A DNA stretch of 40,243 nt, taken from an uncultured Hungatella sp. Its GTDB lineage: Bacteria > Bacillota > Clostridia > Lachnospirales > Lachnospiraceae. Both the position numbers and the translations under genes were made by a program. Shown here in pieces: positions 23,607 through 40,243 of the stretch; the first letter of the stretch is position 1, and every line of letters starts with the position of its first letter. Below the pieces are notes generated by a model. The model saw nothing but the letters and a program-made list of their open reading frames with translations, was not told the origin of the DNA and did not search any database. The DNA lies in contig CAMTAF010000022.1 of assembly GCA_947066955.1 (NCBI GenBank), forward strand, positions 1 through 40,243, in the 5' to 3' direction.

Positions 23607-23948
23607 ATGTTAATAACAGAGGCATTGGATATTCTGGAACTAGATCGTTCGGCATCCCCGGAGATGATAAAGAGAGCTTATAAAAGACTGGCAAGGAACT
23701 ACCATCCGGACAATAAAGCAACACGGGATGAGAAGATGTTTCTAAAGGTAAAGGAAGCATATGAATGTTTGAAAAACAGAGTTTCTCCGGAGGACTCAGA
23801 ATCAGCTAGCACAAGAAAGGCAAGACAGGAGCCATGTTTTCAATGTGGAGGTACAGGAAAGAGGAAGATAAAGAGGAAAACCCAGAGAGGAATCATGGTT
23901 GTAACAATACCATGTGAGAACTGTAAAGGAACAGGCTATGGGGGATAA
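23607..23948 (+). CDS. Small J-domain protein with half DnaJ zinc-finger
   Basis: 113 residues. Residues 1-60 form a J domain with helix II 'RAYKRLARNY' and the invariant HPD at 33-35, needed to stimulate Hsp70 ATPase. Residues 77-110 carry two CxxCxGxG motifs (C77/C80 and C103/C106), one complete zinc centre, whereas DnaJ has four such motifs and two centres. No Gly/Phe region or substrate-binding C-terminal domains. ATG 23607 follows AAGGAGG. The toxin gene starts inside its last codons. It is the dedicated co-chaperone candidate for the three Hsp70-like proteins encoded downstream. Confidence 0.88.
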   Translation: MLITEALDILELDRSASPEMIKRAYKRLARNYHPDNKATRDEKMFLKVKEAYECLKNRVSPEDSESASTRKARQEPCFQCGGTGKRKIKRKTQRGIMVVTIPCENCKGTGYGG

Positions 23949-25623
23949 GTATTTAAATGAAGGCTGTAAATTTATATGTGACTGTGGGATAGGAGCAAAT
24001 CTATTTAAAACTACATCAGGGATTCCATCAAGGGTGAATCTGCACAATAAATCGATTTTGACAAATGAAACCATACTTGTTCCAGAGATTGACATAGGTC
24101 TATTTTGCATGAAACAGCCTAACCCGCAAGGAAATCCTCCGTATTTTCCATGTAAATTAAAAAGTTTAGGAGTTAATTGGAAGAAATGTTCTAAAAATAA
24201 ATGTGGCGGACGGAATTTATTGACAGAACAATCTAAAGCCATATGTAATGGATTTTTTGGTGAGCTGACAGTAAAACCTCCTGTTATTATAAAATGTGTT
24301 CAGGATATAAATGCGGTAAGAGTGCTTTCACCGGCAAGTAATCACCAGAAACAGAAAACAATGGAACAAAGGGGCAATAATGGTGAAGCAAGTCAAAAGG
24401 CTCAGGAAAAAAAGCGGACGATTGAAGATACTTCAGACAAAACAGAGATTGCTAACAGCATAATAATGAAGTGTCCATACTCGCCAGAAAAAGAAAAGTG
24501 CAGGACTTGTGGATATCTTCTCGCTAAAACAGATCGTGTGGAATCCGCTCTTATAGAGGGAAGCTCCAAAACCCCCTCTATGATTCTGCGGGAAAATTAT
24601 GAGAAGAATTATGGACAGGTAAAATCCAGACGAAAGTATCTGAAAAATTTTGAAAACTATATGGCAGAATTGACTTTGTTTGATCGTAATAGAGCTGGAA
24701 ATCAAGCCCATCATATCATTTCCGCGAAAGATGTGTTGATGAAGCCACAGGTTGAATTCGTATTAAAATTAGTAAATTATTATGGTTGGGATGTGAATAA
24801 TGCATTCAATTGTATTTTATTAGCAGGAAATAAAGAACAAGGAGATTTTAAGGGACGTGTAGAAGACAAAAAGACAGAGGAAAAGTATCAAATAATGAAT
24901 ACTGTCAAAAGACAATGGCATGGGGGCGGACATGAATTCTCTGTCCATAACAGTGAAGAGTTTGAGGGGGATTACGCAACGCTGGTAACTGACAAACTGA
25001 TGGAAGTTATGAATGGTTTGTCCAGTTCCTTCTGCCGCCGAATCGGAGAGGAAAACAAATATTATGAGAAGGGACGAACAGAATTCATTAATAGAATGAA
25101 TGTATTCATTGATTATATTTGCGATAAATTGGCGGATTTTGAGAAAAATCCTCGAAATAGCCATCCATTTTATGTTTCCGCAGATGCGTTCCAGTATTCT
25201 TATGGTATTCCGGAAAACTGGAAATTTTTAGTTGTAAGATATGGAAAAATCAGACGAGAGCTCAAAGTATATAAGTATATAGCGATGAGGAAAGAAGATG
25301 ATACCAGAATATTAAAATTTGATTTTAGAGGGGAAAAGAATTTTTTGTTGGATGAGTATGATCAAAAGAAGAAAGCCGAAAGATCCCTGGTAATGTTTTG
25401 TGAACAAATTGATACAATGATTTTGGACAAAAATGGGTATGATGTACAGTTCCCGTTTTCTGTCACAAATATCTATGAAGTTTCTATTAAAGAACTGGAA
25501 GTAAAGGATTATCTGGTTATGAATGCGAATGCAATAGGAGTTTTTCTAAGCAAAATTGAGAAGTGCAACCAGAAAAATTGTATGCGCAGGCGCTTATTAG
25601 AATTGAATGGCGACGGGGGATAA
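23938..25623 (+). CDS. PAAR-like (DUF4280) polymorphic toxin with AHH nuclease domain
   Basis: 561 residues. Residues ~1-125, Cys-rich and opening 'EGCKFICDCG', match the DUF4280 PAAR-like fold that caps VgrG spikes and carries toxins. A Lys/Gln/Asn-rich linker follows, with CPYSPEKEKCRTCGY near residue 180-200. Residues ~245-335 contain A257-H258-H259, a 'GWDVNNAFNCILL' segment and HGGGH (H328, H332), the arrangement of AHH-type HNH-fold nucleases. A ~225-residue C-terminal extension is unassigned. It is predicted to be a DNase/RNase effector delivered by the spike. ATG 23938 is used (GTG 23914 lies deeper in the J gene); 11-bp overlap with the J-domain gene. The immunity gene follows. Confidence 0.72.
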   Translation: MGDKYLNEGCKFICDCGIGANLFKTTSGIPSRVNLHNKSILTNETILVPEIDIGLFCMKQPNPQGNPPYFPCKLKSLGVNWKKCSKNKCGGRNLLTEQSKAICNGFFGELTVKPPVIIKCVQDINAVRVLSPASNHQKQKTMEQRGNNGEASQKAQEKKRTIEDTSDKTEIANSIIMKCPYSPEKEKCRTCGYLLAKTDRVESALIEGSSKTPSMILRENYEKNYGQVKSRRKYLKNFENYMAELTLFDRNRAGNQAHHIISAKDVLMKPQVEFVLKLVNYYGWDVNNAFNCILLAGNKEQGDFKGRVEDKKTEEKYQIMNTVKRQWHGGGHEFSVHNSEEFEGDYATLVTDKLMEVMNGLSSSFCRRIGEENKYYEKGRTEFINRMNVFIDYICDKLADFEKNPRNSHPFYVSADAFQYSYGIPENWKFLVVRYGKIRRELKVYKYIAMRKEDDTRILKFDFRGEKNFLLDEYDQKKKAERSLVMFCEQIDTMILDKNGYDVQFPFSVTNIYEVSIKELEVKDYLVMNANAIGVFLSKIEKCNQKNCMRRRLLELNGDGG

Positions 25624-25627
25624 GGAT

Positions 25628-26158
25628 ATGGCAAGATATTTCATTATGAAACCGATAATTTCTGACAACTTTATCAGGATATCAGCACCTAAAGAACTGC
25701 AAAAAGGCTGTATGAACTCTGAATTTCAATATCTTGATCATAAGCCTATGGAAATAATCGTTTCTCTTGATTATGGAACAGATTTCCCTGATTACATAAT
25801 AGGGGATGGTTACGCGCCTTTTATTTCTGACAAACTGCGGAGACTGTTTGAAAAGGAAGGAATTTGCAACTTGTTCTATAAAAAAACCAGCTTGATTATG
25901 GAAGATTTTGATATAGAGGAATTATACTGGTTTGCTCTTCCTCCTCGGATAAACTGTCTTGATCCAGAATATATTGATCCGGATATGGGTATAGCCACGG
26001 AAATCCATATATTGGATGAGAACGTAGGAAATTATCAGATATTTAAACTGGCAGGGGTTGGGAATCATGATGTAATCGTCACAAGCTATTTAAAGAATAT
26101 GATCCAGGAGGAGATAGAAGCGCGAAAGATGAAAGGAATACGATTTAAACCATTGTAA
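25628..26158 (+). CDS. Imm11-like immunity protein
   Basis: 176 residues from ATG 25628, chosen because GGGGG lies eight bases upstream; an ATG at 25607 inside the toxin gene lacks this. The sequence starts MARYFIMKP and has an alpha/beta composition with acidic surface and short conserved-looking stretches (DFPDYIIGDGYAPFISDKL, FKLAGVGNHDVIV) that resemble the Imm11 (MXAN_0049) family. Immunity proteins bind and neutralise their cognate toxin in the producer. The position four bases after the nuclease toxin strongly supports this pairing; family assignment is by eye. Confidence 0.6.
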   Translation: MARYFIMKPIISDNFIRISAPKELQKGCMNSEFQYLDHKPMEIIVSLDYGTDFPDYIIGDGYAPFISDKLRRLFEKEGICNLFYKKTSLIMEDFDIEELYWFALPPRINCLDPEYIDPDMGIATEIHILDENVGNYQIFKLAGVGNHDVIVTSYLKNMIQEEIEARKMKGIRFKPL

Positions 26159-26175
26159 AGGAGAGAAGACCGCAG

Positions 26176-28383
26176 ATGAGCGATATCAAAAATTATATGA
26201 GAGATATCAAGCAGACGAGCAAAACAATTCTATTTGAACGGTTTGTCAGAGAAGATCAGGAAGGAGAAACGCCTGATGATTTGTGCATGATTTTAAACGG
26301 TCAAGATTATGTAAAAAGTGACAAGTGTTTTAAGGACGTTGAAACGAAACTGGGAGTGAGAAGTTTTGAGGAGTTTGTAGAAAAATTTATCCCCTTCATC
26401 TATGAACAAGTGTGGACAGATCCGAATACCGGAGAACTCAGGGTTTCCTATACAACAGAAAAACCAAACGGATGGGATGAAGAGAAGAATCCCATAGCCT
26501 TAAACACTCAGGCTTTTTATACAATGATTGAGAGGCTGTACATTAACAGAAAGAACAGTGGACGTGCCAATATAGAATTTGATTTTGATGATATCTCCAG
26601 ATTGTTATGTCCAAAAGAAAGGCAGGAAGGATATAAAAGACTGAGAAGACAGTTATCATACTATACAAAAGAATATTATCGTCTCGAAGAATTGACACCA
26701 GGAATAGATACTGAGGAAAAAGACAAGTGTATCGATATGATTGAAGATTCAAGGATCGCGTTCACCTCTTTATATCAGGCGGGTGTGTCGGAGGTACTGT
26801 CACTGCAGTTGGCGGATGCGCAGTCGTTTCTTTTGGAAATGAAACAGGAAGCATCAGGATTTGAAGGAGAATCAAGTAATTTTGTAAAAGCACTTCCCGT
26901 ATTTGATAACGATGGCAATCTTAAAGTTGTTCCAATAAAACAGGAAGAAAATATAGCGGACAGGATTGAGATGAAGGAGGATCCTGAGGTTCTTCTATTA
27001 GAAACATTAAAGGAGGATTTTGAAGAAACAGCACCTGAATTGGCCAAGTCTAAAGAAATAACAGATCTTGTATTATCCACAGTTTCCAGTATTCATACAA
27101 GAAGAAATATGACATCGGAAGAGGCAAAAAAACGAGTAGAAGAAAGCCAGGAGTTGTATAAAAAGTGGAATGAGGCATTGGCAGAGACCATTGCTCCTCT
27201 GATAGAAAAATTCTTAGGAGTCAGAGCTTTCTTTGAAAACGCGGGAGAAGGCCAGCTGGAAAGTCTTTTGATTGTAGCTAACTGTGATGCGGCAGAATTG
27301 ATGAAAGAATGCAAATCAAGGCTGGAAGAGTTTTTGGAGCATTTGAGCGCGTCACCGGAGGATAGAATATGGTTTGGGATTATTCCGGCGGTTGCTCTTG
27401 GGGATGAAAGGATTAAGACCGCGGCTTCGGGAAAAAGAACGCCCCTGGGAAGAAGTCTTGGAGAGATGCGGCAGAGAGAGGAAAAAAAGGTAGAGAATCT
27501 GGTCTCTTCTGGGAGCGCTGGCGAACTGCTGGCAGTTTGCGAGAAAGCGAAGATTATGTGCTTTTATAATTATAAAGCCAATGAGAATACATGTTTTGGC
27601 AATTTGAGCAAAGCCACATATGAGAAGATGCGGGATAAAATAACATTTCCAGACGGATCTTACGCGGTATGCTGCCTTCCCAATTTTACGGTTCTTCCAA
27701 AAGATAAAGCAAAGGTCTTAATAAATGAGGATCTTCAGAAAAACAAACTTGCGGAAGATCTGGTTGCGGTTGAACTGCCGGGAATCTATCTTGATGCCGC
27801 GTATGTAGCCTGCGGGATGGTTGTTGGTTCCCAAAGGCATGGAGTCCTTAAAGCAAAAGGATTTAGGGTTAATAGAAATCTGCCAGGTATAAGGGTCGAT
27901 TTTGAGGATAAAGAGGTATCTTATGGGTTTACCTCAAATATGTGTCGGGAGAGATTGCTGCCATGCCCTAAAGATTTAGAAAAAGGGATCATGGAGAATC
28001 GGTTCGGTTTTTACTTTTGCGATACAAAGATTACAGGCAAGGACGGAAATCCCATTACCTATTGCTATGTAAAGAATTCACGAACCATGAGATTAAAGGG
28101 AACAAAATATCGAAAATTAAACCATGTTCTCTTTGCAGATTTTATAGAGTTGTGTGTTAATGGAGGAAGCAGTGAGGTAAACGCGGATCAAGTTAAAAAC
28201 TTTATAGACGGAGATGTAAAATCCTGGGGACAGTTATTCCAGGAACAGGAGTCAGAGGAAGAGAAGGAGGTGAACAGGTTGCTTCGGGAAGATGAAAAAA
28301 TCAAGCTGTCCGGATTATCAGATATAGAAATCCAGTATGGTGAAGATAAAGACTATGTGAAAGTAAAAGTAGAAGAAAAGTAA
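26176..28383 (+). CDS. Large uncharacterised protein of the injection operon, possibly sheath-related
   Basis: 735 residues, no firm family. N-terminal ~230 residues are mixed alpha/beta; ~270-480 is helical and acidic; the last ~200 contain 'LPGIYLDAAYVACGMVVGSQ', 'LPGIRVDFEDKEVSYGF' and 'NSRTMRLKGTKYRKLNHVLFADFIELC'. The AAYVA-G-----SQ style helix followed by a beta-rich end is reminiscent of TssC/tail-sheath C-terminal halves. The position just before the tube and spike genes is where sheath genes lie in contractile systems. A fused or expanded sheath, a baseplate part, or an unrelated scaffold all remain possible. Ribosome-binding site AAAGGAG about 12 bases before the ATG. Confidence 0.7.
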   Translation: MSDIKNYMRDIKQTSKTILFERFVREDQEGETPDDLCMILNGQDYVKSDKCFKDVETKLGVRSFEEFVEKFIPFIYEQVWTDPNTGELRVSYTTEKPNGWDEEKNPIALNTQAFYTMIERLYINRKNSGRANIEFDFDDISRLLCPKERQEGYKRLRRQLSYYTKEYYRLEELTPGIDTEEKDKCIDMIEDSRIAFTSLYQAGVSEVLSLQLADAQSFLLEMKQEASGFEGESSNFVKALPVFDNDGNLKVVPIKQEENIADRIEMKEDPEVLLLETLKEDFEETAPELAKSKEITDLVLSTVSSIHTRRNMTSEEAKKRVEESQELYKKWNEALAETIAPLIEKFLGVRAFFENAGEGQLESLLIVANCDAAELMKECKSRLEEFLEHLSASPEDRIWFGIIPAVALGDERIKTAASGKRTPLGRSLGEMRQREEKKVENLVSSGSAGELLAVCEKAKIMCFYNYKANENTCFGNLSKATYEKMRDKITFPDGSYAVCCLPNFTVLPKDKAKVLINEDLQKNKLAEDLVAVELPGIYLDAAYVACGMVVGSQRHGVLKAKGFRVNRNLPGIRVDFEDKEVSYGFTSNMCRERLLPCPKDLEKGIMENRFGFYFCDTKITGKDGNPITYCYVKNSRTMRLKGTKYRKLNHVLFADFIELCVNGGSSEVNADQVKNFIDGDVKSWGQLFQEQESEEEKEVNRLLREDEKIKLSGLSDIEIQYGEDKDYVKVKVEEK

Positions 28384-28403: not shown

Positions 28404-28832
28404 ATGGAAGACGCAACAGGATTTTCAGTAGAAATTATACAGGAGAATGGAAACACGATTTTTTTGGATGATAAAACTGTAAATACAGTAGAGTTTAAAA
28501 TTGATACTGTGGAGGAAGATGTAAAAGACAGATCAGAGAATGTGGTCAACAAAGTTGTAGTCATCGGAAACATCAAACCGGAAAGCAAAGATCAAACAAG
28601 AATGTTAGCTCTGTGGTCGCTGGACAAGAAAAGAGAAAAAGTATACAGAATGATGAAAATCACTCTGAAAACCGGGGGAGAGACCTTAAGGACGTATAAT
28701 ATGGACAGGGTATTCTGCATCGATTATACAGAACGTTTTAACGCGCGGGAAGGCGAGAAGGGACATACTTTTGAACTGGTGGCGGCTCAGCGAAAGGATA
28801 ATTTGGATGGAATCAAGATAGGGTCAGTTTAA
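28404..28832 (+). CDS. Hcp-like tube protein
   Basis: 142 residues, mostly beta with a single central helix region (ALWSLDKKREKVYRMMKITL) flanked by strands. Begins 'ATGFSVEIIQENGNTIFL' and ends in beta strands (FELVAAQRKDNLDGIKIG). The size and pattern agree with the Hcp/phage tail-tube fold seen in Bacillota injection-like loci. It is followed after 15 bp by the spike gene. It would form stacked hexameric rings inside a sheath or as a bare tube. No export signal. Assignment rests on fold pattern and context; ribosome-binding site AAAGGAG. Confidence 0.6.
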   Translation: MEDATGFSVEIIQENGNTIFLDDKTVNTVEFKIDTVEEDVKDRSENVVNKVVVIGNIKPESKDQTRMLALWSLDKKREKVYRMMKITLKTGGETLRTYNMDRVFCIDYTERFNAREGEKGHTFELVAAQRKDNLDGIKIGSV

Positions 28833-28847: not shown

Positions 28848-30194
28848 ATGATGGTGACGGAGTTCAGGAATATAGACGGATTCAGGAAATTTAATCTGAG
28901 TAAGAAAAGAAATACTCATTCTGTCTGCGAATTTACTTGTAGAAAAGGGAAATACGCAATATCTGATAGTGTTTTTAAAAGGACAATAAAAGTTTACGAC
29001 TGTGAGGATACGGATACTCCATCTTCTGATACCCTTTTAATGTCAGGAAATTCGCGGGACATTAAGTGTATGGAGGGCTACAGTGAAGACCTGATCTCTG
29101 TCACCATTATGTCAAAATCTGTAAAGCTGGAAAGGGAGACTCACACAAGGATTTTCCAGAACGCTGGAAAAACATATAGAGATATATTAAATTACCTACG
29201 GGGTGAAGAAGATTTTGAAATTATATTTTTAGAGGAAGGACTGGGAAGAGATGCGGTAGAACAGCCAGTGGTCCAGATAAATGAGACAGATATGGAATTT
29301 ATCTGCCGTATAGCGCTGATGATGGGTTCTTCTGTGTGGGTAGATGATAAAAGTGACGATGTATGCCAGATTCGGATAGGAGATAAAAGAGGAAATTCAG
29401 CGATAGAGATTGACGCGGAAGAACTGATTGTATTGGAGAAAGAGTTTTGTCCAGACCGGGAAAGAATTCGAATCCAAATCAGTAATATTGATGATAAGAC
29501 TAGAAACTTAGACATAGGAAAGCAGATAAGACTTGACGGAAGGGATTATATAATTGATGAGTTAAATATTCGCGGACAGGATCAGGTATATAGATACGAA
29601 TATCTGGCAAGCCGCAGTCGGGGAGATACAGGGACTTACGCAAAAAAAACCGAGAATATGATTCCAGTATATCATTTTGTTGGGAAAGTGATCGGCAATA
29701 AAGATCCAGAGAACAGGGGGAGAGTTCAAGTAGATTTTAATTCCGGGGATATTCAGGATATTTCAGACAATAACAATATATGGATTGACATGGAAACCAT
29801 ATACGATGGAGATAAGGGCGGAGTTGTATTCATTCCGGATATAGGAGATTTTGTGGATGTCTTGTGGGATGGAAAGGAATTCGTTATTACAGGAGTAAGG
29901 CGGATGGAGGACATTGGCGAGGAACATAGGAATATTGATGAAAAATCGATCATTGATCGGTCAGGCAGAAAAATTTATTTCGCTGGTGACGGACTGAGGA
30001 TGGAATCAAAGGACAGTGTTGTTATGATCAATGATGATAAAGTGGAAATAAGAAACCGAGATCTATGTATCGTAGCGGAAAATGGAACGGTTCATATGGA
30101 TATTAACAAAAACTTGGAATGTAATGTAGAGAAGAAAATCATTCTGGAAGGAAACGCAATTATCATTACAGGAAAAAATGTAAACATTAATTGA
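28848..30194 (+). CDS. VgrG/gp27-gp5-like spike protein
   Basis: 448 residues. Residues ~1-265 fit the gp27-like hub ('RETHTRIFQNAGKTYRDILNYL', 'ETDMEFICRIALMMGSSVWVDD'). Residues ~274-350 form the gp5 OB-fold ('HFVGKVIGNKDPENRGRVQVDF', 'GGVVFIPDIGDFVDVLWDG'). Residues ~365-448 are short repeating strands (IYFAGDGLRMESKDSVVMI ... NVEKKIILEGNAIIITGK) typical of the trimeric beta-prism needle. This is the clearest injection-machine component here, and its blunt end would take the PAAR-like toxin as tip. Ribosome-binding site AAGGAG before ATG 28848/28851. The next gene starts at or just beyond its stop. Confidence 0.85.
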   Translation: MMVTEFRNIDGFRKFNLSKKRNTHSVCEFTCRKGKYAISDSVFKRTIKVYDCEDTDTPSSDTLLMSGNSRDIKCMEGYSEDLISVTIMSKSVKLERETHTRIFQNAGKTYRDILNYLRGEEDFEIIFLEEGLGRDAVEQPVVQINETDMEFICRIALMMGSSVWVDDKSDDVCQIRIGDKRGNSAIEIDAEELIVLEKEFCPDRERIRIQISNIDDKTRNLDIGKQIRLDGRDYIIDELNIRGQDQVYRYEYLASRSRGDTGTYAKKTENMIPVYHFVGKVIGNKDPENRGRVQVDFNSGDIQDISDNNNIWIDMETIYDGDKGGVVFIPDIGDFVDVLWDGKEFVITGVRRMEDIGEEHRNIDEKSIIDRSGRKIYFAGDGLRMESKDSVVMINDDKVEIRNRDLCIVAENGTVHMDINKNLECNVEKKIILEGNAIIITGKNVNIN

Positions 30195-30205
30195 TGGGGA
30201 TGGCA

Positions 30206-31528
30206 ATGAAATTTACAGAATTCAGTGAATTGAAGGAGAAATTAAAAAACAGCAGTTGTGAGAATTTGGATTTTTTATTGGGAATGATAGATTGTGTCCA
30301 AAATTATACAGAAGGACAGATTGAACAGATAAAAAACAGGATTGAGCAGACGCTTTACGCGCCAGAAAAATCTTTTGGAATAGTAATAACGGCGCTGGCT
30401 GATGAGGAATATAGAGAAGGATTAAGGCATGCTGGTTTTTATGGAATAGATGACACGCTTTTCTACCTCTCAAAATCAAAAATTGAATCAGCAATGAACA
30501 GTGAGTTAATTAAGAACATAATTGCTGCTAAAAAAGAGAAGAAAAAAAGCAGTGTGCTGGGATATACGTTTCTGAAATGTGATTATAAAAGATTCCGAAA
30601 AATGACAGAACAGTATGATATGTACAAAGGCTGTATCAGATATAGAGACGGAAAAGAGATGGAGATTTCTTACAGATTGATCTTTTCTGATAAATTGATC
30701 CGGAAAGAAAAAATATTAAGATATTGTGGGGAATTATATGGCATTACAGCGCCTATTATCTTTTTGCCCTTGGCGCGGAGACTGGTTGAGATACGGATCA
30801 ATGTTGAGAATATTGAAGATTACAAGGAAGATATTGAGAGCGTGGATTTGAAATTAGAAGAAAATACTTTGAATGAAGTCGCGTTTCTAAATAAATTCGC
30901 CGCATGGAATATCAGGATACAGAGCCAGGATCTGGATATCAGCAGAACCAGAGGGAATCCTTTGGGAAAAGAAAGACATTATAGTTATGTTTTTGATGGG
31001 TGCGACAGAAATCAATATATTATACCGCTGGTAAAACAGAGTTTTCTTTTTGATCTTCCACATCGTGACCGAGATAAAATTGAGTTTAAATATTTAGAAA
31101 ATTATACGGATGGATTCGCTAAAATTACCATTAACAGTATTTTAAAAGAGCCGGAAACACCGTATCTTTTTTCCAATGCGCATAAAGCGAATGACAGTAA
31201 TGGAAGAGCTGTGGAACAGTTGATAAAAGAAAGGCTGCGGAGTGAGGCGGATATATTGACAGCAATCAAGCAACATGGAAAGCAGCTTGGATTAGAATTG
31301 GAGAAGATATCAGCAGCTAGGCTGCCTGACTATAAAGAATATGAAAAATATAGAAATGAGCTTTCCTATACCACTGTTGACAAACTTTGGCTAAAAACAA
31401 CAAGGACAGTTTATCTCTATTTCGCAAACAAGGAAAACAGTATTTTCGCAGATGATTACCTCAATTATCTTTGCGATTATTTTACAGTCATGTATCCGGA
31501 TATTACGTGGAGAGGAGGATACCGTTGA
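30206..31528 (+). CDS. Uncharacterised injection-operon protein 1
   Basis: 440 residues; no family recognised. N-terminal 60 residues helical, a Lys-rich helix near residue 110 (IAAKKEKKKSSV), then alternating strands and helices with 'YGITAPIIFLPLARRLVEIRI' and a C-terminal helical part ending 'YPDITWRGGYR'. Placed between the spike and Hsp70 genes, it could be a baseplate/adaptor part. ATG 30206 has GGGG 6-9 bases upstream; ATG 30194 overlapping the spike stop (TGATG) is an alternative adding four residues. Its 3' end contains the ribosome-binding site of the next gene and overlaps its start. Confidence 0.75.
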   Translation: MKFTEFSELKEKLKNSSCENLDFLLGMIDCVQNYTEGQIEQIKNRIEQTLYAPEKSFGIVITALADEEYREGLRHAGFYGIDDTLFYLSKSKIESAMNSELIKNIIAAKKEKKKSSVLGYTFLKCDYKRFRKMTEQYDMYKGCIRYRDGKEMEISYRLIFSDKLIRKEKILRYCGELYGITAPIIFLPLARRLVEIRINVENIEDYKEDIESVDLKLEENTLNEVAFLNKFAAWNIRIQSQDLDISRTRGNPLGKERHYSYVFDGCDRNQYIIPLVKQSFLFDLPHRDRDKIEFKYLENYTDGFAKITINSILKEPETPYLFSNAHKANDSNGRAVEQLIKERLRSEADILTAIKQHGKQLGLELEKISAARLPDYKEYEKYRNELSYTTVDKLWLKTTRTVYLYFANKENSIFADDYLNYLCDYFTVMYPDITWRGGYR

Positions 31529-32184
31529 CTTATATATTTGATAATTATTCTGTAGATAATGCATATCGTCTGGCATTGAATAATTTTTCACCTTATGCGG
31601 AATGTCTGAATACTCAGGGTTTGGAGAGAGAAGTAAATGGGTTGTTCCGCTTTAGTGATATTTTTAAAGAGTTGGCAGGTTATTTGGAGGGAGGAAAGGA
31701 TAGAAGTGAGGAAATTTCGCTTTTGTTTCATATTCTTGCCAACTATGATCTTTTGTCTGGAATGACGGGGATGGATATCCACATGATCTTGTGGGAAGAA
31801 ATGATTCAAGGGGGATACTGTGGTGATCGGAATAAGGACTTATATGAGAAGTTAAGCAATCATCAAAAATATATCATTTTAAAATATTTTGAACATAGGA
31901 GACAGAGCAATATCAGAAGAAGCTATGCTTATGAGGCAGGCAGAGAATTGCTGGATGCTATGTTTTACTATTCATGCGCAAAAGAATGTTTATTGATTTT
32001 CATTCCTTTCGCAAAGAAAGAAAAAAGTGCAGAGGACAGTGAATGTACATATGGGGAATTATATGAGTTATGGAGAAGTATGTTTTTGGATTACTGGGTG
32101 AAGGATAAAGCAGTGTGGGAAAAGCATTTTGGAGTTATAGGGTTTGAGAGCTTAATGACGATTGGTGAACTGCAGCTTATCTAA
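31525..32184 (+). CDS. Uncharacterised injection-operon protein 2
   Basis: 219 residues, largely helical, aromatic-rich (LTYIFDNYSVDNAYRLAL, EYFEH-like helices, FLDYWVKDKAVWEKHFG). No family recognised. Start is TTG 31525, with GAGGAGG at 31512-31518 and a TTGA stop-start overlap with the preceding gene; the in-frame ATG at 31471 lies inside that gene without a ribosome-binding site. The tight coupling implies it is made in proportion with the preceding protein, perhaps as a complex. The Hsp70 gene follows after 19 bp. Confidence 0.75.
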   Translation: MTYIFDNYSVDNAYRLALNNFSPYAECLNTQGLEREVNGLFRFSDIFKELAGYLEGGKDRSEEISLLFHILANYDLLSGMTGMDIHMILWEEMIQGGYCGDRNKDLYEKLSNHQKYIILKYFEHRRQSNIRRSYAYEAGRELLDAMFYYSCAKECLLIFIPFAKKEKSAEDSECTYGELYELWRSMFLDYWVKDKAVWEKHFGVIGFESLMTIGELQLI

Positions 32185-32203
32185 ATTATGGGGAGGACAT
32201 GAT

Positions 32204-33790
32204 ATGGGAAAAGAGATAGGGATTGATTTTGGAACCACGACAACAGAAGTCAGCTATATTGATAAGAATGGTTACGCTCGGGCTATGAAGTTGGAAAGAG
32301 GATATCTAATTCCTACGGTTTTATATTTTATGTCTGAGGATGAATATATAATCGGCTCTAAGGCCGCTGTGAGAGGAAGGATGAAGCCAGAGGGTATGGT
32401 GAGGAATTTTAAGCTATTTCTCACAGATCCAACCAAGAAATATAAGGTAGTTGCTAATAATGGGGATCGCTTTATTATAAAGCCTGTTAAGGCGGCGCAG
32501 TTGTTCTTGAATAAACTGATACAGATAATTCAGCCAAAACTTCTCAGTGAATTTGGAGAAAAGGAGGGAACCATCGATAAAGCGGTGATAACGGTTCCTG
32601 CTCAGTTTGATCCAGAAGAAAAGTCCGCTATCAAAGAAGCGATTTTGAAAGCAGCCAGTCAGGCCGGTTTCTCCGATATTAAAATAGCCGCGGAACCTAC
32701 AGCGGCAGCTGTGGCTTACCAGGATGAAAACTGTGAAGATGGGGAATCTATCTTGGTATATGATTTTGGAGGCGGAACTTTTGATGTGTCCGTTATCCGG
32801 AAATTAGGAGAAATTTATACAGAAATTGCCACAGATGGAGATAAGAAGCTGGGAGGAAATCTGATAACAGAGAAGATCGCGGAGAGGCTGTGGGAAATTT
32901 GCCTGGACGAGGTGGACAGAGACTATCCATTTGATGCAGAGGAAGCGGATCATTATTCAGAGGACGATTATGAACTCAGTAGTGAGCGATTTTTCTTAAA
33001 TCGCAATGAGGTTTTTGAGGCAGCAGAGAATATGAAAAAGGATTTTCTTGAGGAAGATGAAGTAGAACAGGCTATCAGGTTTTATCTGGATAATAACAGT
33101 GAGCCAACGCTGATCAATGTGGAGATGAGTCTGGAGGATTTTTATGACATTATAGAAGAGGATATCCAGAAAACAGTTAGCTTGACCAGCAGAGTTCTTA
33201 AAGAGACCATGGAACGGGGAGATGTATCAAAGATTGATCAAGTGGTATTGGCGGGAGGAAGCTCACAGATTCGTTTGGTAAGAGAGAAGTTGTCTGAAAA
33301 TGATATTCTGAGAAATCTGGTGGGGGTGGCAGGAGAATCATCGACGCTGATTTCACGAGGGGCCGCTAAGCTGGCGTCAGTAGAGTTGAAAGTAGAAGAG
33401 AGGACCCGATTTGAAATAGGAACAAGACTGATAAAAGGTGTGCAATTAAATTTGTTTGAACCAGTAATCAGGGCAGGGGAGAGGCTTCCTTGCTCAGGGA
33501 CACAGGTGTTTTATCTCTCCAGGCAGGATCAAAAGGAAGTGACCATAGAATATTACGAGAAAGATGTAAAAAATTATCCTGATGCGAAAAAAATTGATGA
33601 TGATGGAATCAACTTAGTTAGTGAATTAACAATCACAGGAATTCCGTCTCAGGCAGGACTTTCATTGTGGGTGACATTTAGCATCGGAGCGGATGGAACT
33701 CCCTCTGTGTCAGCGGAGATTAAAGATCAGAGCCATCAGGTGGTGAAGGCAGAAAAGTTAAAGATTACCAAAGGGGGGAATCTGTATTGA
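32204..33790 (+). CDS. Hsp70-like chaperone A (lid-less)
   Basis: 528 residues against about 610-640 in DnaK. The actin-fold nucleotide-binding domain is complete: GIDFGTTTTE (phosphate 1), VPAQFDPEEKSAI, AEPTAAAVAY, DFGGGTFDVS (D187 region, phosphate 2), LGGNL and VLAGGSSQI (adenosine). Residues ~415-528 retain a beta-rich SBD-beta-like segment ('LSLWVTFSIGADGTPSVSAEI'), but the alpha-helical lid is missing. It would hydrolyse ATP and bind clients with help of the J protein encoded at 23607. An acidic insert lies near residues 245-270. ATG 32204 follows GGGAGG; the next gene begins in its stop codon. Confidence 0.88.
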   Translation: MGKEIGIDFGTTTTEVSYIDKNGYARAMKLERGYLIPTVLYFMSEDEYIIGSKAAVRGRMKPEGMVRNFKLFLTDPTKKYKVVANNGDRFIIKPVKAAQLFLNKLIQIIQPKLLSEFGEKEGTIDKAVITVPAQFDPEEKSAIKEAILKAASQAGFSDIKIAAEPTAAAVAYQDENCEDGESILVYDFGGGTFDVSVIRKLGEIYTEIATDGDKKLGGNLITEKIAERLWEICLDEVDRDYPFDAEEADHYSEDDYELSSERFFLNRNEVFEAAENMKKDFLEEDEVEQAIRFYLDNNSEPTLINVEMSLEDFYDIIEEDIQKTVSLTSRVLKETMERGDVSKIDQVVLAGGSSQIRLVREKLSENDILRNLVGVAGESSTLISRGAAKLASVELKVEERTRFEIGTRLIKGVQLNLFEPVIRAGERLPCSGTQVFYLSRQDQKEVTIEYYEKDVKNYPDAKKIDDDGINLVSELTITGIPSQAGLSLWVTFSIGADGTPSVSAEIKDQSHQVVKAEKLKITKGGNLY

Positions 33791-34479
33791 TAGAGAAGAT
33801 AAAAAAATTGATCGACCGTCTGAGCCGGAAATATAAGGAGGAATCGCTGTATGAAAGATTAGAACAGAAATACGGGAATGTAAAAACGGATAAAAGAACA
33901 GTAGAGATAGAAGTTCCAGATATTCAGGAGAAAACAGCGGAAGTAATGTTCCAGGATCACCTGGAATATAATCAAAAAAAACTCCAAGATATACTGGAAG
34001 ATTTTTCTGATATGTGTCAGGAACTGGAAAAAGTATATCCTGAAAATGAAAGGACCGCTAATTATTATAAATGTATCAGACAGTTTTCAAACAAGATAAA
34101 TGGAATATTGAATAAGAGGCAGATTCTTGAAAAAGGTGAAGAAGTAGCGAAAAAATTTAAATCCGGTTTAGAACAAACATTAGTAAAGGTATGGAATATA
34201 GGGGCTGGTTGTTCCATTATTAAAAATTATCTGATCAAATGGGGAATAGCTATAGCAGCTTATGATAAAGGGAAGTATTTGTCAGATGAGGAGATGGAAT
34301 ATCTTGATTTGAGTACAATACAGATTTATCAGAAAAGAACGGCCGACAAAGGAAAAGACGGAGAAGTGATTGAGATGATCCGCCCAATTTTTCTTATCAG
34401 TTATTTATCAGAAGAGGAAGAACTGCCTGAATACGAATATATAGCGGGACAGTGCAGGTATTATTGTTATTCAGCTTGA
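33787..34479 (+). CDS. Divergent GrpE-like protein 1
   Basis: 230 residues. N-terminal ~60 residues basic then polar; ~60-125 long helices suitable for a GrpE-type coiled-coil dimer. The end ('LIKWGIAIAAYDKGKYLSDEEMEYL', then 'GEVIEMIRPIFLISY' and a final strand pair) follows the layout of the GrpE beta-domain (KFGV..I-----DP..H.A-----V..------G------). GrpE exchanges nucleotide on Hsp70; position immediately after Hsp70 A supports this. Start is TTG 33787 overlapping the Hsp70 stop (TTGA), with GGGGGG at 33773-33778. Assignment is by eye and tentative. Confidence 0.75.
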   Translation: MIEKIKKLIDRLSRKYKEESLYERLEQKYGNVKTDKRTVEIEVPDIQEKTAEVMFQDHLEYNQKKLQDILEDFSDMCQELEKVYPENERTANYYKCIRQFSNKINGILNKRQILEKGEEVAKKFKSGLEQTLVKVWNIGAGCSIIKNYLIKWGIAIAAYDKGKYLSDEEMEYLDLSTIQIYQKRTADKGKDGEVIEMIRPIFLISYLSEEEELPEYEYIAGQCRYYCYSA

Positions 34480-34497: not shown

Positions 34498-35610
34498 GTG
34501 CTTTTTTGGTTATCAAGAAGAAAACAAGAAGAATGGTTTGAAAAAATAAGATCAGAACAAGAATATTATGCGGAACAGAATAGACAGGCAACACAGGAAC
34601 AGTTGGACAGTTTCCAGCAGTCTATAATAGAAAATCAACGGATCACAGAAGAAAATATGGAGGTTTACCTAGAGCAGGTCATCCGAAATAACTTGGCAGA
34701 ACTGGCCAGTTTTGGGAGTATAGAAAAGTTGGAGAAGGAACTGGTCAGGTACAGGGAAGAGAATGAACGGCTGATAAAATATATTAAGGAATTGCTTTGT
34801 GTGACCCAGTCCATAAAAGATTCTGTTGATAAGCTGCAAAGACAGGTAGAAGATTTGGGTAAAGAAAGAAACTGGACCACTCCATTTCAATGGATGCCTC
34901 CAGTACAGCCACAGGTTCCCCCTTTGCCCCAAAATGAAACAGGGACAGTAGCCTCTGTCCCTCCGATATCAAAGACTTTAGAAGCGTCAGTGATGGGGAC
35001 GGAATCATCGGTAAAAAAATGGACAGGTGTTCCTCTGGAAGCAGAAGTTACTAAAAGGACACTTCCGACAACCATTGTAACCCCTGTTTTTACATGTGAC
35101 AGAGGGGAGAACAAACATGTGCTTGCGGAATGTATATTCCAATGCGGAGAGTTAAAAAAGGTATTAGAACAGAAAACCAGTGCAGATAGGTCTTTTGATA
35201 TTTATTATAAACTGTTGGAGAAATGTCAAAAGAAGTTAGGCGACTTATTACGGAAAATAGATGAGAAAGATTATGATTCAGAGAAGCTTGCCAGTGAAAT
35301 GATCAAATTGCTGAAACAGACCATGATTAAGGCTTTATCTCAGGAGACGGTTCATGATCTTGTAGACAGTTTTTTGATAAAGTGCGGGCTGAGAAAGATT
35401 GAGTTTAAAAAGGGAGATAAGTTGGCTGACAAAGACTATGATTATATAGACGACCTGGTTTTATACGAAGAAGTGGATGATATCAAAAAAGACAATAGGA
35501 TCCTTGAGATTAAGCAGGATGCCTATGCATTGGATTATGTGGACGAGAATGGTGAGACAGAAGCGATCATACCAGGAATTTACAGGATCGGCAGATATAA
35601 AGATTTTTAA
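34498..35610 (+). CDS. Divergent GrpE-like protein 2 with long coiled coil
   Basis: 370 residues from GTG 34498 (AGGAGG at 34487-34492). Residues 1-125 form a long coiled coil; ~125-190 are a Pro/Thr-rich flexible linker (WMPPVQPQVPPLPQ); ~200-280 is helical. The end fits the GrpE beta-domain: 'FLIKCGLRKIEFKKGDKLADKDYDYID', then 'NRILEIKQDAYALDYVDENG' and 'IIPGIYRIGRY', aligning with the E. coli GrpE 'RKFGVEVI', 'VLGIMQKGYTLNG' and 'RAAMVTV' strands. Predicted nucleotide-exchange factor for a neighbouring Hsp70, with added scaffold segments. Family assignment is from pattern only. Confidence 0.75.
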   Translation: MLFWLSRRKQEEWFEKIRSEQEYYAEQNRQATQEQLDSFQQSIIENQRITEENMEVYLEQVIRNNLAELASFGSIEKLEKELVRYREENERLIKYIKELLCVTQSIKDSVDKLQRQVEDLGKERNWTTPFQWMPPVQPQVPPLPQNETGTVASVPPISKTLEASVMGTESSVKKWTGVPLEAEVTKRTLPTTIVTPVFTCDRGENKHVLAECIFQCGELKKVLEQKTSADRSFDIYYKLLEKCQKKLGDLLRKIDEKDYDSEKLASEMIKLLKQTMIKALSQETVHDLVDSFLIKCGLRKIEFKKGDKLADKDYDYIDDLVLYEEVDDIKKDNRILEIKQDAYALDYVDENGETEAIIPGIYRIGRYKDF

Positions 35611-35634: not shown

Positions 35635-37185
35635 ATGAGAATGTTGGGGATTGATTTTGGAACATGCAACATAAAGGGGGCAGAGCGAAAGAGAAACGGC
35701 GATATAGCCACTCTGAAATTAGGAAAGCAGATTGACAAACCGAGAGTACCTAACGTCACTTTGTATGAAAAAAAAGAAGGACAGAAAGTTAGTGTTATAT
35801 TGGGGAAACTAGCGTTGACAAAATCCGCGCGGGAACAGGACAGAATAAGGAACATTAAGGCATATCTCCAGGAGTATAACTGGATTCGAATGCTTTCCTT
35901 TGGTATCAGTGTCTCAGCCTATGATGTGACCAGGGATATTATGAAAAACCTTTATGATGAAATACATCGTTCAAATAAAGAAGAGGATATATCAGCTGTG
36001 ATTACCGTGCCAGTGAATTTTTCAAAAAGGCAACAGCAGATTGTGAAAAAGGCAGCCGAAGAGGCGGGGTTTCTTGTTAATGAGGTTATCACGGAACCTT
36101 TTGCCTGTTTCTTTTCCCTGATGCGGGATGAACTGGATGAAGATCATAATGTTATGATTTTTGATTTCGGGGGTGGGACATTGGATTTGTGTTTGATAGA
36201 GGTTCGGCAGAGGGATGGAAAGGTAAGGATTCAGACACAGGCCACGGTAGGAATCGGTTATGGCGGAAACCACATCAATGAAGATATTCTGAAAGAAATT
36301 CTTTGTAAAAGGAAACCAGATAAAATACGGGAAGTTTTGGAGCAACAAGAGGACAAGTATTATAGAATGCTGAACAGATATTATATTATGACCGCTATTG
36401 ATGAGATGAAAGAAACCTTGTTTGGAGGAGATGAAGAAGAGGCAGACACTCATATAGCTTTTAAGGACAGCATAGAAGATTTTGGAAAAATCACTCCAGC
36501 GGATATTTATCAGATATTTGAAAAGCAGAATTGGAAAAAAAGACTTCACAAGCTGTTAGATAGTCTGTTCTCCGACAGTGATGATATGACTGCAGATGAA
36601 GTTACAGATATTTTTATGGTAGGAGGATCATCATCTATCCCATATTTCAGGAATATCATTGAAAGCTATTTTTTAAAAAACGGGCATGAAGATGTGAAAG
36701 CCCTTTTTGAGTTGAATGATGATATGGAGGAGGAGGAAAGGCTGTACGCCTCAGTGGCCCGTGGAGCGGCTATCTATAACGAATTGATTACGTCTCATGA
36801 TGAGAATATGATCATAAAAGACAAAATCCCGTTTATGGTCTATACCAAAGGAGAGGGAGAGAGAAAATTAACACCGCTGATGAAAAGTGATTCCTATAAG
36901 GATTACCGCTCACGACTGGACTCTCTGTCAGAGGCAATGAAAAGAGAACGGAAGATCCAGGTATATCAGACTATTTTTGGCGAGGAGGAGAAAGAAGTAT
37001 ATCTGGGGGATATTTGTCTGATAGAGGAAGCAGCAGCCCAGGGCAGCCTGTATCGTTTGATGGTAGACAAGGATAGGAACATATTGGCCGAGATCGGTTA
37101 TCTGGATATGGACGAGGATTACGAGGAGGGAGAAGACAGATTTTGTGTTGACTGGCGGTTTCCGCTGGAAATAGACCTTTCCTAA
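35635..37185 (+). CDS. Hsp70-like chaperone B (actin-fold ATPase, atypical C-terminus)
   Basis: 516 residues. Phosphate 1 is LGIDFGTCNIKG (Cys where DnaK has Thr), then VITVPVNFSKRQQQIV, TEPFACFFSL, FDFGGGTLDLCLI (D177), GYGGNHIN and FMVGGSSSIPYF; later VARGAAIY. Residues ~405-516 are a short mixed region unlike SBD-beta, with no lid. It is more divergent than Hsp70 A and may act as a regulatory or structural actin-fold subunit rather than a general foldase. Two adjacent ATGs (35635, 35641) after AGGGGACAGG. Codon and GC character match the rest of the low-GC operon. Confidence 0.88.
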   Translation: MRMLGIDFGTCNIKGAERKRNGDIATLKLGKQIDKPRVPNVTLYEKKEGQKVSVILGKLALTKSAREQDRIRNIKAYLQEYNWIRMLSFGISVSAYDVTRDIMKNLYDEIHRSNKEEDISAVITVPVNFSKRQQQIVKKAAEEAGFLVNEVITEPFACFFSLMRDELDEDHNVMIFDFGGGTLDLCLIEVRQRDGKVRIQTQATVGIGYGGNHINEDILKEILCKRKPDKIREVLEQQEDKYYRMLNRYYIMTAIDEMKETLFGGDEEEADTHIAFKDSIEDFGKITPADIYQIFEKQNWKKRLHKLLDSLFSDSDDMTADEVTDIFMVGGSSSIPYFRNIIESYFLKNGHEDVKALFELNDDMEEEERLYASVARGAAIYNELITSHDENMIIKDKIPFMVYTKGEGERKLTPLMKSDSYKDYRSRLDSLSEAMKRERKIQVYQTIFGEEEKEVYLGDICLIEEAAAQGSLYRLMVDKDRNILAEIGYLDMDEDYEEGEDRFCVDWRFPLEIDLS

Positions 37186-37212: not shown

Positions 37213-38232
37213 ATGGTAAAAACAGATGATTATGGGATAGACAAGCTTCGTGCTTTTGAAAAGCAGATTTCTGTGAAAGTGGAGGAGAATATTAACAGTG
37301 CTGTTGGGATAGCCCAGGAAATTTTATCAATGTTTCATGACCTGCAGGAAATATGTGAGACATTTTATGAGGTGCTTGAACAGAGAGAGCAGGAGCTGAA
37401 AAGCCAGCAATCAATCAATAAAAGTCTGGAGAAGAAGATTGAAGAACAGAAGATAAAAATTGAGAAGCATGAGTCAAAAGCAGACTATTATGAAAAGCTA
37501 GAGTTGGATTCCGGGAAAATCGTGGCATTGTTGATCGCGAACCAGCAAGGGAAAGAAACGCTGGACAGGGAAAGGGAGAGGCTGGTTGAAGAGAGGAAAG
37601 ACCTTGAGGGGGAGCGAATCCGACTGGTCTTGGAAAAGGACAATGCAGTAAACAGAGCAAACAAATACAAAGTAGAAAGAGACACAGCTATCCATTCCAG
37701 AGATGAAGCGATCGCGGAAGCGCAAAGATTAAAAGAAGTAATAGCTGTTAAGGAAAAAGAGATCGAAGCAAAAGAACAGGAAATTGCCGAGAAAGAGGAA
37801 GAGATTAAGGACAAGGAAAAAGAGAAAAAAGCGAATGAAGAGCAAGTGTTGAAGTCTTTGCGTGAAGAAATTCAAAAAAGAATGAGTATAATTGAAGAAA
37901 ATAGGCGAGTCAGCGAAGAACTGGAATGGATGAAAGGGTATGCGGAAGCGCTTGATGGAAAGATAATTCAGTATTTTAGGGATGATAAAAAGAAAGAGTT
38001 AAAAAATCATTTTAGCGATTATCTGAATAATCCAGGGAAGTGGGCGGAACATAGAAAGCATTTTCCGGAGTTCGAGGGTACACGCAAAAAAAAAGAAAAA
38101 GAAGAGGGAAGAAATGAAGAGATAGACAGATCAGCGGAACGACTGATGAAAAATGAGGCAGAAGAAGAAAGAAAACCTCGTGTTCAGAAACCTCATACTA
38201 ACAATTTACCAAAAGGGGAACAGATATTATGA
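37213..38232 (+). CDS. Long coiled-coil protein
   Basis: 339 residues, almost entirely charged heptads from ~45 to 245 (for example 'EKEIEAKEQEIAEKEEEIKDKEKEKK'), then 'HFSDYLNNPGKWAEHRKHFPEF' and a basic/acidic tail. It is a scaffold, spacer or bridge between two Hsp70-like gene products; no enzyme motif. It could functionally replace the dimerising helix of a GrpE, but the beta-domain is not visible. Ribosome-binding site AAAGGAG. Its stop overlaps the next start as ATGA (38229-38232), so it is coupled to the Hsp70-vWA protein. Confidence 0.85.
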   Translation: MVKTDDYGIDKLRAFEKQISVKVEENINSAVGIAQEILSMFHDLQEICETFYEVLEQREQELKSQQSINKSLEKKIEEQKIKIEKHESKADYYEKLELDSGKIVALLIANQQGKETLDRERERLVEERKDLEGERIRLVLEKDNAVNRANKYKVERDTAIHSRDEAIAEAQRLKEVIAVKEKEIEAKEQEIAEKEEEIKDKEKEKKANEEQVLKSLREEIQKRMSIIEENRRVSEELEWMKGYAEALDGKIIQYFRDDKKKELKNHFSDYLNNPGKWAEHRKHFPEFEGTRKKKEKEEGRNEEIDRSAERLMKNEAEEERKPRVQKPHTNNLPKGEQIL

Positions 38233-40243
38233 AAAAAGTGCAGGTAGGGATTGACTTGGGAACTACAAACACTCTTGCATGCTGCAGGATAAAGGGGAGG
38301 CTGAAACTTCTAAAATTCAGAAGTAGTCAGATGCTTCCGTCAATTATGTACGTGGAACAACAGCCCGATGGAACGATCAGAGAAATTGTGGGAAAGCCGG
38401 CGAAAGTAAAAGGATTGGCAGATCCGGATAATTGCATTCGTTCCTCAAAAACATACATAGGGCTTACTGGCAAGAATAAAAAAACCTGGACTTGCCGTGG
38501 AAAGACCTATACTCCCACAGACGTCGCGGCAAGAATTCTCAGCGAGGTTCACCAGAAGGTGAGGGAGACTTATGACCTGGAGGATGAGGATATTGTCCAG
38601 GCGGTGATCACAGTGCCAGCCTACTTTTCCAGCACCCAGTCCGATGAGACAAAGCAGGCGGGGAGGAGAGCGGGAATGGAGGTTCTCAGGATCATCACAG
38701 AGCCAGTGGCTGCCGCTGTGTCTGCTGCCGAGGATACGGATGGAAAGATCTTTGTAGTGGATCTTGGAGGCGGGACTTTCGATGTAAGCGCGTTGAGCGT
38801 AGATAGCAAAGGACTTTCTACCTTGGATATAGGGGGAGAGAGAAGGCTGGGAGGGGATGATTTCGATAAATGTCTGGTGAAGTATTTTCTGAAATATATT
38901 GAGAGTGACCTGTCGATGGATCTGTCAAGCCTGGAAAAATCAGGACTCGATTATGAGAACTATTATATGATGATGGCAAAGATCCAGAATGGGGCGATAG
39001 AGTTAAAAGAAGAACTGAGCGAAATCGATGAAGCGGAGGTTGATATTCCAGGTCTGTTTACATATGGCCCGGACAAGAGATCCTATGATTTTTCTATGTC
39101 TATGAGCAGAGAGGAGTTTAACCAAATATGTAAGCCGCTGTTTGAAAAAATCATTCAGGTTATTGACGAAACTGTAAAAAATAGCAAGAAATTTAAAAAA
39201 GAAGAACTGAAAAAGATATTCTTGGTAGGAGGAAGCTGTTATATTCCCAAGGTTCAGGAGGATGTGGAAAATTATTTCGGCCTTTCTGCCAACGGAGAAC
39301 AGGACAGGGCCACGCAGGTTGCCATGGGGGCAGGAAAAATAGCTGATGCCTGGAACGGATTTACGCCAGAACAGAACAGGATCGATCCCTTTGATGACAA
39401 ACTGCAGGATATTATTCCCCATTCCATGGGAATTGAAGTGTTGGATAAAGACGATAAGAGTATATTCTCAGAATTATTGTCAGAGGGAAGTTTATATCCC
39501 TGTGTCCGCAAAGAGATTTACAGAAATGCTTATGATTATCAGGAGTCAGTGGTCATCAAGGTTTATGAGAAGATCAACAGGAGCTCTTCTGACAAGATCG
39601 AAGGGAATGATAAGAACTTTGACTTATATGGTAGTTTTGTTTTGGAAGGCATAGATAGGGCACCAGCGGGGCAGACAGAGATATGTGTGACTTTTGACTA
39701 TGATCAGAGCCGTACTCTCCATGTCACCGCGGAAGATACCAAAACCCATGTGGCGAAAAGGGTGGAGCTGCATAAGGGACAGATCGTGGAAAATTTCAAG
39801 AAAAAAGGGGCAAAGCCGACAGATTTTTATTTACTGCTGGATGTATCAGGGAGTATGTCAGGAAACCGTATTACACAGGCAAAAACAGCCTGTGAAAAGC
39901 TGATACTTGAGATTCTGGATTTAAATATTCACCGTCTTGGTCTGATAACATTTGAAAGTAAAGTACAGATGATGTGCAGGTTAACACAGAATAAGAGAAC
40001 CCTTTTGGAAGCCGTTAAAGCTGTGGGCGTTGGTGGGAGTACTAATATGGATGGGGCCATCAGGCTGGCTACAAATGAATTGTGTGGAGTTGAAAACAGC
40101 AACAACAAGGCGGTCATCCTGATTACAGATGGTGCTCCAGACAGCGCTTCCATTGCATTGAGAGAAGCTGAGAAAGCTAGAAATAGCGGTATTTCCATTG
40201 CGACTATAGGAGTCTATGGGGCTGTGGAAAGTTTTTTAAAAGA
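38229..40243 (+). CDS. Hsp70-vWA fusion protein (3' end outside window)
   Basis: 671 codons are visible without a stop; the gene continues past the window. Residues ~1-380: Hsp70 nucleotide-binding domain with GIDLGTTNT, VPAYFSSTQSDET, TEPVAAAVS, DLGGGTFDVS (D178 region), LGGDDFD and FLVGGSCYIP. Residues ~405-525: SBD-beta-like region ('PHSMGIEVLD', 'CVTFDYDQSRTLHVTAED'). Residues ~531 onward: von Willebrand A domain with an intact MIDAS: DVSGS (D538), the Thr of GGSTN (T605) and TDGAPD (D634). vWA domains bind partners through a metal ion, so the protein may link chaperone activity to assembly of the machine. ATGA overlap with the coiled-coil gene sets the start. Confidence 0.9.
   Translation, partial: MKKVQVGIDLGTTNTLACCRIKGRLKLLKFRSSQMLPSIMYVEQQPDGTIREIVGKPAKVKGLADPDNCIRSSKTYIGLTGKNKKTWTCRGKTYTPTDVAARILSEVHQKVRETYDLEDEDIVQAVITVPAYFSSTQSDETKQAGRRAGMEVLRIITEPVAAAVSAAEDTDGKIFVVDLGGGTFDVSALSVDSKGLSTLDIGGERRLGGDDFDKCLVKYFLKYIESDLSMDLSSLEKSGLDYENYYMMMAKIQNGAIELKEELSEIDEAEVDIPGLFTYGPDKRSYDFSMSMSREEFNQICKPLFEKIIQVIDETVKNSKKFKKEELKKIFLVGGSCYIPKVQEDVENYFGLSANGEQDRATQVAMGAGKIADAWNGFTPEQNRIDPFDDKLQDIIPHSMGIEVLDKDDKSIFSELLSEGSLYPCVRKEIYRNAYDYQESVVIKVYEKINRSSSDKIEGNDKNFDLYGSFVLEGIDRAPAGQTEICVTFDYDQSRTLHVTAEDTKTHVAKRVELHKGQIVENFKKKGAKPTDFYLLLDVSGSMSGNRITQAKTACEKLILEILDLNIHRLGLITFESKVQMMCRLTQNKRTLLEAVKAVGVGGSTNMDGAIRLATNELCGVENSNNKAVILITDGAPDSASIALREAEKARNSGISIATIGVYGAVESFLK

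Follow-up and report, generated by a model that had tools for sequence, protein, structure and literature searches.

An injection-machine operon with J and Hsp70 genes in an uncultured Hungatella, and the Hsp70-type ATPase of its relatives

The operon and its genes

The stretch of DNA analysed here (the window) is one whole contig of 40,243 nt, CAMTAF010000022.1, from an uncultured Hungatella sp.; it belongs to a 4.2 Mb draft genome of 240 contigs, whose completeness is rated 92%. Positions 23607 to 40243 form a single operon of 14 genes, all on the plus strand, in which the parts of a contractile injection machine are joined to a J protein and three Hsp70-type proteins. The intergenic gaps are at most 27 nt, many genes overlap, and the contig ends at 40243, inside the last gene. 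A reading made from the letters of this DNA alone (the sequence-only reading) had described a co-directional operon with gaps of about 30 bp at most, and its coordinates are right.

The first gene (23607..23948) encodes a J-domain protein (Pfam DnaJ, 2.3e-14, in a longer frame from 23367) with an HPD motif and a partial CXXCXGXG zinc finger (DnaJ_CXXCXGXG, 1.6e-6, under the cut-off); AAGGAGG precedes its ATG. It is followed by a PAAR-like tip fused to an AHH nuclease toxin (23914..25623), where the AHH domain matches Pfam over the cut-off (2.4e-5) and the PAAR-like DUF4280 domain under it (4.2e-4), and by an Imm11 immunity protein (25607..26158; 7.9e-6, over the cut-off). The contractile tail sheath is a single protein of 735 aa (26176..28383), identified by its predicted fold; the sheaths of extracellular contractile injection systems (eCIS) are among the top fold scores, level with phage sheaths, and no TssB or TssC family is among the Pfam matches of the operon genes. 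Next come an Hcp-like tube protein (28404..28832), which has a weak TssD match (0.012) and whose family profile matches PDB Hcp1 at 0.0038, and a VgrG-like hub or spike (28848..30194) that matches Phage_base_V over the cut-off (4.7e-8) and Phage_GPD (1.6e-6) and TIGR01646 (4.6e-9) under it. The two conserved proteins that complete the machine genes, G445 (30191..31528) and G237 (31471..32184), are probably baseplate components; neither has a Pfam, PHROG or PDB sequence match. Pfam matches of the 14 genes include no baseplate or membrane-complex family (TssJLM included) of the type VI secretion system (T6SS), an NCBIfam search of ten window proteins gave nothing for most, a PHROGs search gave nothing useful, and a PDB sequence search with the sheath was unproductive. 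Overall, the evidence strongly supports the assignment of the window to part of a contractile injection machine with its toxin and immunity protein.

The chaperone part begins directly after G237 with Hsp70A (32162..33790; Pfam HSP70, 5.1e-43, profile positions 2-491 of 599), which has a nucleotide-binding domain (NBD) and the beta region of a substrate-binding domain (SBD); it overlaps G237, or starts 19 nt after it if translated from the likely ATG at 32204. Two paralogous coiled-coil-like proteins (33787..34479 and 34498..35610; related at 4.4e-9) precede the diverged Hsp70B (35635..37185; 2.1e-26), and a long protein that is coiled-coil by eye from its translation and without a Pfam family at 0.01 (37213..38232) precedes Hsp70C (38229..40241; 2.7e-84), whose NBD and SBD-beta region are fused to a VWA domain (4.8e-18) and which is truncated by the contig end. 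All three Hsp70s retain their catalytic residues. The sequence-only reading is borne out in its toxin-immunity pair, its possible sheath gene, its tube and spike genes, its J protein and its three distinct Hsp70-like proteins. Its label of GrpE-like for the two paralogues, which are coiled-coil proteins, is unsupported: neither matches a GrpE model at E <= 10, and hhalign against the source genome's own GrpE gives a probability of 0.2% (on a thin two-row input and one GrpE). Further, Hsp70B matches the PADLOC candidate PDC-M61B (1.2e-15) and Hsp70C is matched as well, in both cases probably through the shared Hsp70 domain.

The operon genes have a GC content of 0.35-0.44, compared with 0.53 in the preceding gene and 0.55 in the first 18 kb, which gives the operon the look of an acquired island, with a similar make-up in its machine and Hsp70 parts. 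In a draft of so many contigs, ordinary stress chaperones could have come to lie here by chance or misassembly, but this is very improbable. The gene overlaps and the uniform GC content speak against it, as does the position of the genome's DnaK gene, which lies elsewhere (contig C6) with a GrpE-like gene before it, and in the relatives described below this slot is occupied by an Hsp70-type gene that is conserved among them.

Sheath relatives and their Hsp70-type ATPase

A relative of the sheath is encoded by 397 stretches of the GTDB collection, 80 of which were studied. A simple longest-ORF script supplied the open reading frames (ORFs), J counts come from a six-frame search, and the presence counts rest on profiles built from these same loci. 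The 80 loci are mostly from Paenibacillus (P. terrae and P. brasilensis among them), Lysinibacillus, Brevibacillus, Clostridia and Lachnospiraceae, and a few records are from Treponema, Fusobacteria or other groups; of 299 genomes from the window's own family, 15 have the sheath. Plasmid, phage and viral-contig origins were each rejected, as the window's sheath is unmatched in 72,556 plasmid records, a relative's sheath is unmatched in 50,697 phage records, and 46 pattern matches in IMG/VR included 0 relatives. As one part of the explanation preferred below, the machine family, judged from the 80 loci, is probably chromosomal and found mainly in Bacillota.

Across ten larger loci, the usual order is a VWA protein, the sheath, one or two tubes, J, an FHA protein, the families P180 and P279, a PP2C/TPR protein, G445, G237, P900 and P250, with variation in sets of VgrG, PAAR and Imm11 genes, in kinases and through rearrangements. 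A member of the tube family is present in 80 of 80 loci, and the G445 and G237 families in 57 and 56 of the 64 well-covered ones. A Pfam scan of 55 of the relatives' proteins (8 each of J, kinase, PP2C, FHA, VWA and P180, and 7 of P279) matched DnaJ 8 times, protein kinase 8, VWA 8, FHA 15 and PP2C_2 10; the 15 FHA matches indicate that a second family, probably P180, also has this domain. The window has neither the FHA nor the PP2C proteins of its relatives. It is linked to them through VWA, as a separate VWA protein precedes the sheath in 31 of the 57 loci with 6 kb of upstream sequence, whereas in the window this domain is fused to Hsp70C.

P900 has an Hsp70 nucleotide-binding fold and all key catalytic residues, as indicated by hhalign (where controls gave 0.1-0.8%) and by its predicted structure; a PDB sequence search with P900 was unproductive. 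It thus resembles DnaK in its NBD and in the J protein that accompanies it in most loci, and differs from DnaK by an N-terminal extension of about 220 residues, by insertions and by the place of its gene inside an injection cluster. Past the NBD, six full-length Hsp70 chains align to model residues 861-873 with root-mean-square deviations from 4.5 to 26 Å, in a comparison that barely tests the model outside residues 225-729, so that the predicted structure only suggestively points to an SBD-like part.

The tie between P900 and the machine is seen in two samples. In the family sample, strong P900 hits (E <= 2e-157) occur in 13 of 299 genomes and the sheath is present in all 13; the sheath genomes without P900 are the window's own and one (G133) whose contig ends 5 kb past the sheath, and weak P900 matches in two sheath-less genomes (G242, 5.7e-5; G271, 3.0e-5) were left uncounted. 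In the class sample of 216 genomes, strong sheath hits occur in 6 and P900 in 5 of them, and here too the window's own genome is the one without P900; a weak sheath match over 52 residues (G526, 7.2e-4) was left uncounted. The co-occurrence has p = 6e-21 in the family sample and p = 2e-9 in the class sample, values that are uncorrected for common descent and come from samples overlapping among their positives by G000 and G071. Moreover, among the 64 loci with 9.5 kb past the sheath, P900 is found in 56, J in 55 and neither in 2; several of the 8 loci without P900 hold effector genes, so P900 may lie past the examined flank. Of the ten larger loci, 7 have P900 directly after G237; J is labelled in 6, and in 4 of those it comes immediately after a tube gene. 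P900 persists across loci while the effectors and their positions vary. The pairing of Hsp70 with the machine, which the sequence-only reading had staked on recurrence of tube, spike and Hsp70 genes in other genomes, occurs more often than by chance and is not an accident of one genome. These counts strongly support a dedicated Hsp70-type ATPase, usually with a J protein, as a regular part of the machine.

An AAA+ ATPase is the part that was looked for in vain. As the sequence-only reading had noted, 0 of the 14 operon genes have a Pfam AAA+ match. In the cluster spans of the 80 loci, 831 ORFs gave 7 matches to the Walker A pattern, none AAA+-like by eye, in a motif scan that degenerate ATPases could escape. 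Near the ten larger loci, Pfam scanning of P-loop ORFs identified a sigma-54 activator in G197 and, upstream of the VWA gene of G220b by three to four genes, ClpX and Lon; an ORF just beyond the last VgrG piece of G160 has a weak AAA_22 match (1.6e-4, under the cut-off); within the limits of the motif scan, none of the Pfam-scanned P-loop ORFs there is a ClpV-like or PVC15-like ATPase in place. The statement that no ClpV-type ATPase is seen in the relatives' clusters, and in the window up to 40243, is strongly supported, and a standard ClpV gene following directly, which the sequence-only reading had named as a result that would count against it, is seen in none of those clusters.

The family differs in these respects from both well-known systems. 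The T6SS has a two-protein sheath (TssB and TssC) and ClpV, whereas this family has one sheath protein and, with no ClpV-type ATPase seen, an Hsp70-fold ATPase and a J protein; its 80 loci are, moreover, mostly from Bacillota. The eCIS (PVC, AFP and the Streptomyces systems) share the single-protein sheath of the window. PVC-type systems, however, use a distinct AAA+ ATPase, according to passages of PMC3482391, and none is seen here; the effector of the window, a PAAR-nuclease, is paired with an immunity protein. With one sheath protein and no ClpV seen, and no AAA+ ATPase seen, the machine fits neither the T6SS nor the PVC-type eCIS.

Several side observations concern the makeup of the family. 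The gene after P900 (P250; L080:11301-12029 and relatives) encodes a protein whose N-terminus may resemble phage baseplate proteins and TssK. In a near relative (L042:11585-15289), three consecutive septin/dynamin-like GTPase genes follow the machine genes, P900 and P250. The family extends to records of diderm bacteria, namely Treponema and Fusobacteria (Fusobacteriaceae, Cetobacterium; L082, L087 and L157), and a contig binned as the archaeon Candidatus Methanovirga (L094) carries the sheath, tube, J, kinase and P900, through archaeal ownership or a binning error. VgrG-like ORFs of >2,000 aa lie in or end the cluster in G160:C3 and G071:C31 (L050/L174 and L060/L180) and are probably spike-effector fusions. 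In two sheath loci, L085 and L154, the flank shows no J and no P900; L085, which may be a further variant, contains a VgrG-like ORF of at least 975 aa.

The window beside its nearest relatives

Four loci (L080-L083) have sheaths with 30-35% identity to that of the window and the gene order sheath, tube, VgrG, G445, G237, P900 and P250; PAAR and Imm11 genes come before the sheath, except in L082, where they come after P250. On the contig of L083 (G117:C39), profiles label P900 as the only Hsp70-type gene. The contigs of L080-L082 have no Pfam HSP70 match, in an incomplete search that misses P900 too and gave no Hsp70 hit at all for G555. In the window, Hsp70A occupies the exact slot of the relatives' P900, directly after G237.

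In L081, P900 and P250 are followed by a coiled-coil gene and then by a gene for a 981-aa protein that is unknown to Pfam (L199:11190-15129). This protein matches Hsp70 NBDs by hhalign (97.7%, 1.4e-12; control 0.3%) and retains GIDFGT and FDFGGGTTD motifs. The clade thus has two instances of an additional Hsp70-type gene next to a coiled-coil gene, one in the window and one in L081, where it lies alongside P900. Another coiled-coil gene lies on the same contig (L199) at 18059-18871.

These comparisons divide the claim of a private, multi-paralogue set. It does not describe the near relatives, which have P900 without a Pfam-detectable Hsp70 in the cluster, and searches of 298 other genomes gave no relative of Hsp70B at 1e-20 and two weak matches to the first coiled-coil-like protein; a milder form of the arrangement does recur once, in L081. 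For the window itself, the comparison suggests that P900 was replaced by the canonical-type Hsp70A, and that Hsp70B, Hsp70C-VWA and the coiled-coil partners were added. An insertion, with P900 past the contig end, would be nearly as simple.

Such an insertion could also mean that a separate module, for cargo, defence or stress, was placed after the machine genes and comprises the three Hsp70s and the coiled-coil genes, with P900 and P250 lying past the contig end. Genes past the conserved core do vary, as with three GTPase genes in G117, and the coiled-coil gene and second Hsp70-type gene of L081 come after P900 and P250; the contig ends inside the Hsp70C gene, the gene set occurs in no other sampled genome, and the PADLOC match of Hsp70B would fit a defence role, had it not probably arisen through the Hsp70 domain. 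Yet in L080-L083 the variable genes come after P250 and P900 stands right after G237, which is where the window has Hsp70A; the J gene heads the same operon, Hsp70A adjoins G237 as described above and has a similar GC content, and no P900 was found elsewhere in the genome. On this balance, a separate module is somewhat unlikely.

To the left of the operon, gene GC content falls from 0.53-0.55 to about 0.40 between 22750 and 23607, which is probably the left edge of the island. Just left of it, 18365-22750 (plus strand) encodes a 1461-aa protein kinase-STAND (NB-ARC)-TPR protein, which matches a profile built from the kinases that adjoin the sheath in relatives; as a member of the operon it was ruled out by an 856-nt gap and its GC content of 0.53. 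A small gene between the two (22802-23092, minus strand) encodes, by eye, an XRE-type helix-turn-helix regulator. A promoter scan gave 44 promoter-like sites compared with 44.7 in shuffles, and a terminator scan gave 15 terminator-like sites compared with 10.1 (sd 3.2); a 10-of-12 promoter-like site lies at 23178-23206, although shuffles yield sites of this kind just as often.

A candidate Hsp70 cycle for the sheath

The explanation that best accounts for these data, and one that is rather likely, is a phage-tail-derived contractile injection system with a dedicated Hsp70 cycle instead of an AAA+ ATPase. The sheath would drive a tube, tipped by VgrG and the PAAR-like toxin, into neighbouring cells, which the toxin and immunity pair suggests are probably competitors. 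The J protein, as the presumed partner, would stimulate the Hsp70-fold ATPase as J proteins do. Together, they may have the machine's sheath and tube subunits as clients, keep these competent for assembly, and pull the contracted sheath apart for reuse, as ClpV does in the type VI system; both the substrate of the Hsp70 and the direction of its work, assembly or disassembly, are inferred. Given the kinase, PP2C and FHA set of most relatives, the machine may be cell-bound and fire repeatedly under regulation, and would then have to be recycled.

The Hsp70 and J proteins could instead load effectors and spikes, keeping the PAAR toxin and VgrG ready for loading until the machine fires, with the sheath recycled by housekeeping Clp ATPases or never. 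In the window, the J gene lies directly upstream of the PAAR toxin gene and overlaps it, the SBD-beta regions of Hsp70A and Hsp70C would suit unfolded clients, and a general chaperone, ClpB, serves the Francisella system, according to the abstract of PMC7182274. In the relatives, however, J follows the tube and P900 follows G237, in the proportions given above, and not a toxin. P900 is retained where effectors, J, FHA, kinase and phosphatase are missing or relocated, and for this reason machine subunits are favoured over effectors as the clients. A loader is somewhat unlikely.

Several points weigh against a dedicated Hsp70 cycle or against its extension to the window. The co-occurrence ties P900 to the machine and is silent on its role, and Pfam HSP70 recognises only 6 of 28 P900 proteins at E-values up to 0.01. 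L080-L083 have no J gene in the examined flanks. The window's exact set of Hsp70 and coiled-coil genes was not found in the other sampled genomes; P900 gave no hit elsewhere in its 92% complete genome and might lie beyond 40243. The extra Hsp70-type gene of L081 stands beside P900 and not in its place, which speaks for addition over replacement. Further, the Francisella system is served by a general chaperone, ClpB, which according to the same abstract (PMC7182274) takes part in disassembly there.

In the open PMC literature, outside which most subscription papers and preprints lie, no description of a contractile injection system bearing an Hsp70 was recognised. Passages of PMC8651086 report that Firmicutes carry Phage_GPD genes beside DUF4280-type PAAR_H2 genes without conserved T6SS or eCIS genes around them, and guessed in 2021 at an 'unknown phage-like translocation system' in Gram-positive bacteria. 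The window's operon joins a DUF4280-like gene and a Phage_GPD gene, a likeness at the level of these two families; those passages name no sheath, tube or ATPase, whereas the window's family has all three. This family may well be the system guessed at.

In well-studied systems, the recycling or assembly of the sheath is attributed to AAA+ ATPases. It is possible, as a more tentative generalisation, that the contractile machines of Bacillota form a class in which an Hsp70/J motor assembles or dismantles the sheath, a role that in the window's lineage would have passed to three canonical-type Hsp70s with their own coiled-coil partners. If so, the family of 397 stretches that encode a sheath relative would represent a different energetic solution to the same problem; and by offering a sheath, a tube and an ATPase for the guessed translocation system, it makes that guess testable in cultured soil strains.

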